DNA of 64,000 nt. Origin: Methanobrevibacter sp. V74 (GTDB lineage: Archaea; Methanobacteriota; Methanobacteria; Methanobacteriales; Methanobacteriaceae). This document shows positions 41,841 through 43,056 of this stretch, piece after piece. The notes below the pieces were generated by a model that saw only the letters and a program-made list of their open reading frames with translations, did no database searches and had not been told where the DNA came from. Every line of letters starts with the position of its first letter. The stretch's first letter is position 1. A program made the position numbers and the translations under genes. Location of the stretch: the NCBI RefSeq assembly GCF_963082495.1, contig NZ_CAUJAN010000001.1:248001-312000 (forward strand). The letters run 5' to 3'.

Positions 41841-41936
41841 AGTAATATAATAGCTTAGCATAAATTGGACTTTTGTTGCCTACTAAAAAAAATAGGAGGT
41901 GAAAGTAGTAATATAATAGCTTAGCATAAATTGGAC
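41841..41936 (+). repeat. 30-bp direct repeat with a 36-bp gap
   Basis: AGTAATATAATAGCTTAGCA plus ten more bases at 41841-41870 is repeated exactly at 41907-41936. The 36-bp gap holds a strong AGGAGGTGAA sequence with no good start codon after it. The sizes resemble a CRISPR repeat and spacer, but there are only two copies and no cas genes in the window. A TATA-like GTATTTATATTATT lies near 41800. The surrounding region (41725-42203) otherwise holds AT-rich DNA and no convincing gene. Confidence 0.85.
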
Positions 41937-42203: not shown

Positions 42204-42213
42204 ATTTATATAC
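42204..42213 (+). promoter_or_regulatory. TATA box of the structured RNA
   Basis: ATTTATATAC lies about 25 bp before the 5' end of the predicted RNA stem at 42231, the normal archaeal spacing between the TATA box and transcription start. Confidence 0.55.
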
Positions 42214-42230
42214 TATGTAAATTAACTTAA

Positions 42231-42353
42231 TAAGTAGGGGTTCATAACACATATTGTTATTACCGAAAAATTGATCATAAGTTTTATACTTCGGATGGAC
42301 TGAATAATATTTCAGTTCATCTAACCTCCTTAAGTTTTTAATACTAGTTTTTT
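42231..42353 (+). ncRNA. Predicted structured RNA, three hairpins in a closing stem
   Basis: The closing stem pairs TAAG-(TA bulge)-GGGGTT (42231-42242) with AACCTCCTTA (42323-42332), ten pairs including one G-U. Inside it are three hairpins. Hairpin 1 is ATAACA/TGTTAT (42244-42260, loop CATAT). Hairpin 2 is CCGAA/TTCGG (42263-42294), with an inner AAATT/AAGTTT-type stem and a 5-base bulge. Hairpin 3 is an 11-bp stem, GATGGACTGAA/TTCAGTTCATC (42294-42321). TTTTT and TTTTTT runs follow at 42335-42353. A TATA box sits at the right distance upstream. It is not a tRNA and I do not recognise a known family. It may be an independent small RNA or the leader of the gene at 42367. Confidence 0.65.
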
Positions 42354-42366
42354 CTAATTTTATATC

Positions 42367-43056
42367 ATGATTAAAAAAATTCCAGTAATAGATTTAAAAC
42401 AACATCAAGCTGTAAGTGGCAAATCCGGAATGAGGGACACTTATCAACTTTTAAATACTGTTTTTGCAAAATCCGCTAGTCCTGTGGAAATAGCTCAAGG
42501 TTTAAAACTCAATGGTGCTGATGAAATGTATATTGCGGATTTAGATTTGATTGAATCAAAAGGACACAATATCAATGAGATTAAAATGGTCAACACAATA
42601 CTTCCAGTAATGTTTGATGGTGGAGTTAAAAATTGCGAAGCATTTGAATTTTTCCTTGATTATGCCTACAAGGTCATTGTTCCAACAGAAACTATTGAAA
42701 GCATTGAAGAGATGGAAAAAATCTTTGAAAAATATCCAAAAGAGAGGATTGTTGTAAGTATTGACACTAAAAATAATGAATTGCTTGCTAATCATTTGGA
42801 TATGACATTGTCTGAATTAAAAGATGTTTTAATAAGACTTGATTCTAATGAAATTATTCTTTTAGATATTAGTAGTGTCGGTACTGAAAAAGGATATAAT
42901 GAAAAATTATTAAATGAATTCAGTGAACTGAAAGAAAAATTAATAATTGCTGGTGGAGTAAATAAAGATTCTTTAAGTGAATTAGAGTCATTAGGTATAA
43001 AAAAAGTATTAATTGGAACTAGTCTTCATTCAGGAGAAGTCAAACTCCTAGACTAG
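42367..43056 (+). CDS. HisA/HisF-like TIM-barrel protein
   Basis: 229 residues. KIPVIDLKQHQAVSGKSGMR at the start, MYIADLDLIES, VMFDGGVKN and IIAGGVNKDSL are the HisA/HisF-type strand ends, but with key changes that set apart the hisA/hisF-related family of methanogens (TIGR00734 as I recall). Its reaction is not established; the conserved phosphate-binding loop suggests a sugar-phosphate substrate in cofactor synthesis (inference). No ribosome binding site is visible; the U-tract of the structured RNA ends 14 bp before the ATG. Confidence 0.82.
   Translation: MIKKIPVIDLKQHQAVSGKSGMRDTYQLLNTVFAKSASPVEIAQGLKLNGADEMYIADLDLIESKGHNINEIKMVNTILPVMFDGGVKNCEAFEFFLDYAYKVIVPTETIESIEEMEKIFEKYPKERIVVSIDTKNNELLANHLDMTLSELKDVLIRLDSNEIILLDISSVGTEKGYNEKLLNEFSELKEKLIIAGGVNKDSLSELESLGIKKVLIGTSLHSGEVKLLD

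Follow-up and report, generated by a model that had tools for sequence, protein, structure and literature searches.

What is the structured element that lies in front of a HisA/HisF family gene in Methanobrevibacter sp. V74, and on what does it act? The window, that is, the whole 64,000-nt stretch analyzed here (contig NZ_CAUJAN010000001.1, positions 248,001 to 312,000), contains this element at 42231..42353, downstream of the prefoldin beta and DUF3194 genes and upstream of a gene for a HisA/HisF family protein (TIGR00734; hisAF hereafter). A preliminary description based on the letters of the window took it for an RNA of no known family, either a small RNA or a leader or riboswitch of hisAF. 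Judging from sequence comparison, we consider it probable that the locus encodes a trans-acting antisense small RNA, the seed of which pairs with the leader of mtrE and which likely lowers translation of mtr. Methanobrevibacter is a main methane producer in ruminants and the human gut, and this RNA may tune methane production via the Mtr complex.

Transcription Signals and Distribution

The gene is read on the forward strand. The TATA box that had been assigned to it, TTTATATA, lies at 42205..42212, and a TATA-like box precedes 56 of the 56 copies examined. The transcript is likely to run from about 42234 to somewhere in 42335–42353; the start was placed by the spacing between TATA box and start site, which we take to apply here, and the end by two T-runs (T5 at 42335–42339 and T6 at 42348–42353; 42335..42353 together) that likely serve as terminator. 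The longest T-run 3′ of the C-rich tail is at least 4 in 55 of 56 copies. The limits first proposed for the RNA were thus about right, and the TATA box and U-tract of its own are supported. The predicted RNA, ~105–120 nt long, would consist of a 5′ hairpin (GGUUC-AUAACA..UGUUAU-U-ACC, 42239..42264, helices 1 and 2), an exposed linker, a 3′ hairpin of highly variable sequence (42293..42322, helix 3, 12 bp in the window's genome), and a CCUCC tail (42325..42329), all on the forward strand. A promoter core similar to that of the small-RNA gene was seen at nine other sites, two of which precede tRNA genes; the core near TAGTAACATTTATATA recurs ~79 and ~20 nt upstream of these genes (L405, L408), hinting at a promoter of the stable-RNA type.

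By searching the DNA of 67 genus genomes and the regions upstream of hisAF, we obtained 52 copies in which TTGATCAT follows a TATA-like box; 48 of these were used to build a covariance model, R1. With E below 1e-4 as the limit, 54 of the 67 genus genomes (31 of the 37 good ones) contain a strong R1 match, always a single one. The RNA is conserved, where a lack of conservation would have refuted the preliminary description. Run with fast filters on 150 genomes of the order, R1 returned the same 54 and none of the 83 genomes outside the genus. At the locus itself it matched 42231..42338 on the forward strand (G000:C1:290231-290338, G000 being the window's genome) with 91.9 bits and E 6e-15, the window's own copy having been part of the training set. 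In addition, a promoter-plus-seed pattern run on 149 genomes of the order led to no such RNA recognizable by eye outside the genus.

Several weaker candidates were set aside. An exact pattern of the motif occurs in 42 stretches of named public genomes, 31 from Methanobrevibacter and 11 from unrelated bacteria, and the bacterial ones score at most 29.7 bits with the model. Eight weak extra hits in the genus (E 0.007–0.09) were also rejected; seven are copies of one conserved sequence elsewhere, which is probably coding, and the eighth looks coding too when read by eye. A further weak R1 match, in G033, has 32.8 bits. A small protein gene at the locus was rejected because the reading frame is not kept across homologues, the distance from the motif to CTCC being 0, 1, or 2 modulo 3 in 19, 18, and 13 of 50 copies, respectively. 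As for known RNA families, nothing in Rfam 15 reached the gathering cut-off at the locus or in seven related loci, and a search at E up to 10 gave sub-threshold matches only; the original impression that the RNA matches no family holds over this range.

Conserved Structure

The sequence 42231–42353 folds to -27.9 kcal/mol and beats 200 of 200 dinucleotide shuffles (z -3.27). Its conserved structure was set by hand from one copy and counted first on a plain alignment (A1; 48 of the 52 copies, without G039, G057, G062, and G065) and then on a model-fitted alignment of all 54 model hits (A2), which leans towards the hand-set structure. Because double changes exceed those of the shuffles in both alignments, the two predicted hairpins are strongly supported: double-change cells number 179 against 57 ± 6.5 in shuffles of the model-fitted alignment and 116 against 46.9 ± 7.3 in those of the plain one, and in each case none of 500 shuffles reached the observed value. 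Two other measures on the plain alignment were reached more often by shuffles, "pairs with a change on both sides" by 20 of 500 and "further pair types" by 46 of 500, and RNAalifold applied to a plain sequence alignment of the 52 copies gave five pairs only. In the model-fitted alignment, 88.4% of cells pair (74.5% in shuffles), and 20 of the 22 pairs in the two hairpins have changes on both sides, i.e., 8 of 9 pairs in helices 1 and 2 (77 and 88% of cells paired) and 12 of 13 in helix 3 (92%).

The preliminary description had drawn a ten-pair closing stem around three hairpins and suggested looking for compensatory changes. Strong change of this kind was found for the 5′ and 3′ hairpins and not for the other two elements. 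The closing stem behaves like shuffled sequence (its paired cells amount to 64.0% and its covariation score to 0.112, where shuffles give 64.6% and 0.116), one of its five measures, pairs with a double change, being reached by only 15 of 500 shuffles, and it competes with the conserved 5′ hairpin. The third hairpin (AAAAUU/AGUUUU, 42267–42285) was built on letters unique to the window's genome; the same segment in other copies is the conserved linker and has no such stem. This linker holds the conserved unpaired AAUUGAUCAUUAUUUU between the two hairpins, and the predicted probability of being unpaired averages no more than 0.68 over the seed, with a minimum of 0.43, and 0.52 over the tail, with a minimum of 0.14, values that count against the antisense reading.

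Separation from the HisA/F-Like Gene

The RNA lies directly upstream of hisAF in most genomes read, as would be expected of a cis-acting leader or riboswitch of this gene. The two are nevertheless parted in several genomes where the RNA persists. Between them, G023 has 737 nt with a protein-like reading frame and G053 has 147 nt, compared with 28 nt in the window; in G005 and G036 they are at the ends of different contigs, where the contig-end sequences were read by eye as an inserted element. In all four genomes the RNA and hisAF each keep a TATA-like box. In the window, the gene (ATG at 42367) has the TATA-like sequence TTTTTAATACT (42335..42345, forward strand, by eye) ~26 nt before its ATG, placed after the first T-run of the RNA. 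Because the RNA is not in cis with the gene in every genome, we regard the leader or riboswitch that was originally offered as one of two readings as very unlikely indeed, and the other, a small RNA, as the one favored by these four genomes. The feature appears to be real, and a gene for a small RNA more than a leader of hisAF.

Complementarity to the mtrE Leader

The linker sequence UAAAUUGAUCAUU, conserved and unpaired, has its complement in the leader of mtrE, the gene with which the Mtr methyltransferase operon starts. The gene was identified by TIGR01113 (E 2e-135) between mcrA (TIGR03256) and mtrD (TIGR01112), and in the window's genome its leader is on another contig than the RNA; there, AAAUUGAUCAU (42268..42278, forward strand) and the leader sequence AUGAUCAAUUU form 11 contiguous pairs. 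We found mtrE in 33 of the 67 genomes (E up to 1e-20); 30 loci were read, giving 29 leaders (that of G020 is cut off), and three leaders added later made 32, of which 28 come from genomes with the RNA (all except G006, G021, G045, and G066). The site reads AAUGAUCAAUUUA in 29 of the 32 leaders, G066 has one extra A, and G030 and G025 have AAUGGUUAAUUUA. In 28 of the 28 genomes with both partners read, 11–13 of the 13 seed positions pair with the leader, positions 3–12 in every one of them; 352 of the 364 cells are paired, as against 17–54% after sliding the site by 1–3 nt. The reverse complement of the invariant core, AATGATCAATT, occurs five times in the window's genome, once in the mtrE leader, compared with three times for the reversed control, and the frequency of this 11-mer by itself is not a significant excess over expectation.

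When genes were called in 400 kb per genome and their leaders ranked by the genome's own 14-nt seed, mtrE came first of 409 in G039, first of 380 in G030, and second of 349 in G007. With a 20-nt window the ranks were 1, 13, and 7, respectively, and with the whole G039 RNA mtrE came 141st of 409. In the six genomes measured, the site occupies -39 to -25 and the Shine-Dalgarno (SD) sequence -14 to -9. A TATA-like box located 130 to 172 nt before the mtrE ATG (13 genomes read) makes transcription of the site probable.

Conservation of the linker runs past the seed into UAUUUU, for which no partner was seen in the mtrE leader. This extension is what a structural or protein-binding RNA would be expected to have, with AUUGAUCAUUAUUUUUA as a protein site (the U-run could, for example, hold an Sm-like protein) and a coincidental match to mtrE; such a reading leaves unexplained the coordinated change in G025 and G030 described below, and we hold it to be improbable. 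For the antisense RNA, it is our guess that an Sm-like protein binds the U-rich stretch after the seed.

The mtrE Leader Hairpin

The putative target site is part of a leader hairpin, UUAUUAAAU-GAUCA-AUUUAAUAA, that ends 6–8 nt before the SD sequence. Hairpin followed by SD was found in 32 of the 67 genomes, at mtrE, and the reversed pattern never. The loop is fixed in the genus with three exceptions, G025 and G030, whose RNAs differ as well, and G066, which yielded no RNA. G006 and G066 both keep the mtrE site although no RNA was found in either, which counts against the antisense reading, as does the presence of the hairpin in genera without a detected RNA. Outside the genus, the stem UUAUUAAAU/AUUUAAUAA is kept with other loops in genera g6, g8, and g9 and in one genome of g3 (leaders of this kind are L256, L261, L268, L273, and L260), and the GAUCA loop is present in one g3 and one g7 genome. 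Because the hairpin is kept in genera where R1 found no RNA, it appears to predate the RNA or to have a role of its own.

Most leaders of the genus (e.g., L217) have a second hairpin further upstream, GAUUUUUGUAUGGAACAAAAAUC or similar, with AUGGAA conserved in the loop. The RNA's 5′ hairpin and this other leader hairpin were considered as partners and rejected, no matching changes being visible by eye. G023 has a second mtrE copy (L250, G023:C32) with a second copy of the hairpin, the leader of which resembles that of genus g9; it represents either transfer or contamination.

Coordinated Change in Two Sister Genomes

G025 and G030 are sisters (support 100/99) in a tree of hisAF, which covers 51 of 59 rows and whose bootstrap had not settled. 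Their RNAs read UAAAUUAACCAUC and UAAAUUAACUAUU, respectively, and both leaders read AAUGGUUAAUUUA. At two pairs both partners differ from the standard type, G-C having become A-U and U-A having become C-G; at a third, G025 has C-G and G030 has U-G. The model had already aligned the G030 row, at no more than 20.1 bits, when mtrE came under study; the G025 RNA, missed by the model, was identified by eye from its syntenic position, and the leader of G025 was predicted in advance and then read. The changed seeds are predicted to bind their own leaders with -12.4 (G025) and -11.3 kcal/mol (G030), and three standard leaders with -1.6 to -4.3 kcal/mol. Binding of the changed leader by three standard seeds is predicted at -8.6 to -11.1 kcal/mol, which would have left a plausible path for the coordinated change. 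Evolution thus appears to support the RNA-leader pairing at two paired positions, through a single event in sister genomes, and the standard and G030 types constitute a natural compensatory pair supplied by evolution.

The main rival explanation is a shared DNA operator, in which one transcription factor has a 13-bp site at both genes, inside the RNA gene and in the leader of mtrE, so that the match would tell nothing of RNA pairing. In favor of it, TGATCA is palindromic, the mtrE element forms an inverted repeat, and a factor with shifted specificity in the G025/G030 lineage would alter both sites. The site is, however, well inside both transcripts, and in the RNA it forms the linker between covarying hairpins; outside the genus the stem is kept while the middle varies, as in a hairpin; the non-palindromic version of G025 and G030 has the antisense orientation; and the sole difference between RNA and leader in G030 keeps an RNA wobble pair. 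We therefore judge the operator unlikely, and return to the antisense RNA.

Proposed Mechanism and the C-Rich Tail

In the proposed mechanism, the RNA would be made from its own promoter, its two hairpins would flank the exposed linker, and the seed in the linker would base-pair with the leader of the mtrE mRNA, where the operon for the Na+-pumping methyltransferase starts, meeting the loop of the leader hairpin. The C-rich tail could pair with SD sequences, including that of mtrE, and the bound RNA would hinder ribosome binding, either by its position or via the tail. We infer that the RNA is made and that the duplex forms in cells. The effect on mtr would probably be repression, and activation is conceivable instead.

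That the 3′ side carries an SD complement and could act on translation had been pointed out before, and both statements are supported: CCUCC is present in 49 of 56 copies, and the predicted tail pairing with the mtrE SD extends over 15 nt in G039, 13 nt in G001, G026, and G032, and 12 nt in G013. It is shorter elsewhere (9 nt in eight genomes and 8 nt in G028). When the tails of eleven genomes were all ranked against the 409 leaders of G039, not against their own leaders, mtrE came first for G039, second for G032, fourth for G013, 17th for G001 and G026, and 19th for G004; it came 50th for G030, 53rd for G007, 109th for G012, 120th for the window's genome, and 165th for G008. Because mtrE ranks 50th or lower there, the tail in many species, including that of the window, appears to be a general anti-SD element only. 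Its use on mtrE beyond a few clades is hypothetical.

The frequency of CCUCC, and the rank of 50 or lower in 5 of the 11 genomes, would also suit a general anti-SD small RNA that represses many mRNAs through CCUCC and does not have mtrE as its main target. This reading leaves the most conserved part of the RNA, the linker, unexplained, and the 14-nt linker seed ranks mtrE first or second in three genomes; we hold it to be improbable. A more elaborate form of the antisense reading is tentative at best: a two-handed RNA dedicated to the control of mtr, with the linker on the older hairpin loop and the tail over the SD, that has co-evolved with the leader. Because the order of the seed and tail sites is the same in the small RNA and in the mRNA, gripping both together would need an awkward fold, with linker and hairpin bridging. 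If the two-handed reading is true, Methanobrevibacter of gut and rumen would set the supply of their Na+-pumping, energy-conserving step of methanogenesis through a single RNA, and one lineage would have evolved a different matching code.

Relation to Known Systems

The C-rich small RNAs of bacteria (RsaE/RoxS type) bind SD sequences. They share with the Methanobrevibacter tail an unpaired C-rich motif able to cover the ribosome binding site; in the Methanobrevibacter RNA, by contrast, a separate AU-rich linker would give specificity, and we claim no relationship.

sRNA162 of Methanosarcina mazei is reported to mask the ribosome binding site of a trans-encoded mRNA with an unstructured linker (PMC3510493). 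It resembles the Methanobrevibacter RNA as an archaeal RNA with a single-stranded linker directed at a distant mRNA near the ribosome binding site and with a link to methanogenesis. It differs in belonging to another organism group, in its targets, which are MM2441 and MM2442 rather than mtr, and in having experimental support (PMC3510493); the Methanobrevibacter RNA is predicted from sequence. In M. mazei, two small proteins, MtrR and MtrI, have the Mtr complex as the object of their action (PMC13370731, PMC12774963). They concern the same enzyme complex as the proposed target, but are proteins that act on the finished complex, while the Methanobrevibacter RNA would act on the mRNA. The mtr operon of M. 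mazei is called constitutively expressed in one of these articles (PMC12774963), which counts against RNA control.

In the open-access literature searched, neither the Methanobrevibacter RNA nor control of mtr at the RNA level was found. A survey of the human microbiome mentions five archaeal candidate structures, unnamed in the text consulted (PMC8040213), and the RNA may be among the listings of its supplement. If the antisense reading is true, hydrogenotrophic methanogenesis has a core energy step under the control of an RNA, and such control is directly testable.

Other Elements at the Locus

Different elements precede hisAF in some genomes. In genus g6, G077 (L153, 1160–1310) and G078 (L139) have an element composed of TATA box, hairpin, hairpin, and U-run before hisAF, 88% identical between them, which in G077 follows prefoldin beta-like and DUF3194-like genes. 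It was rejected as the same RNA, being without the shared seed and having no match by eye to the mtrE loop of these genomes, and is possibly a distant relative. G006 (99% complete) has an inverted-repeat element directly before hisAF (L129, L078, G006:C33); no RNA copy was found in this genome, though its mtrE leader keeps the site.

In the window, a perfect 28-nt direct repeat, TAATATAATAGCTTAGCATAAATTGGAC, is located between the DUF3194 gene and the RNA, at 41843–41870 and 41909–41936, with 38 nt between its copies and AGGAGGTGA in the intervening stretch. Its 18-nt core occurs in 3 of the 413 loci compared, all from the window's own genome.
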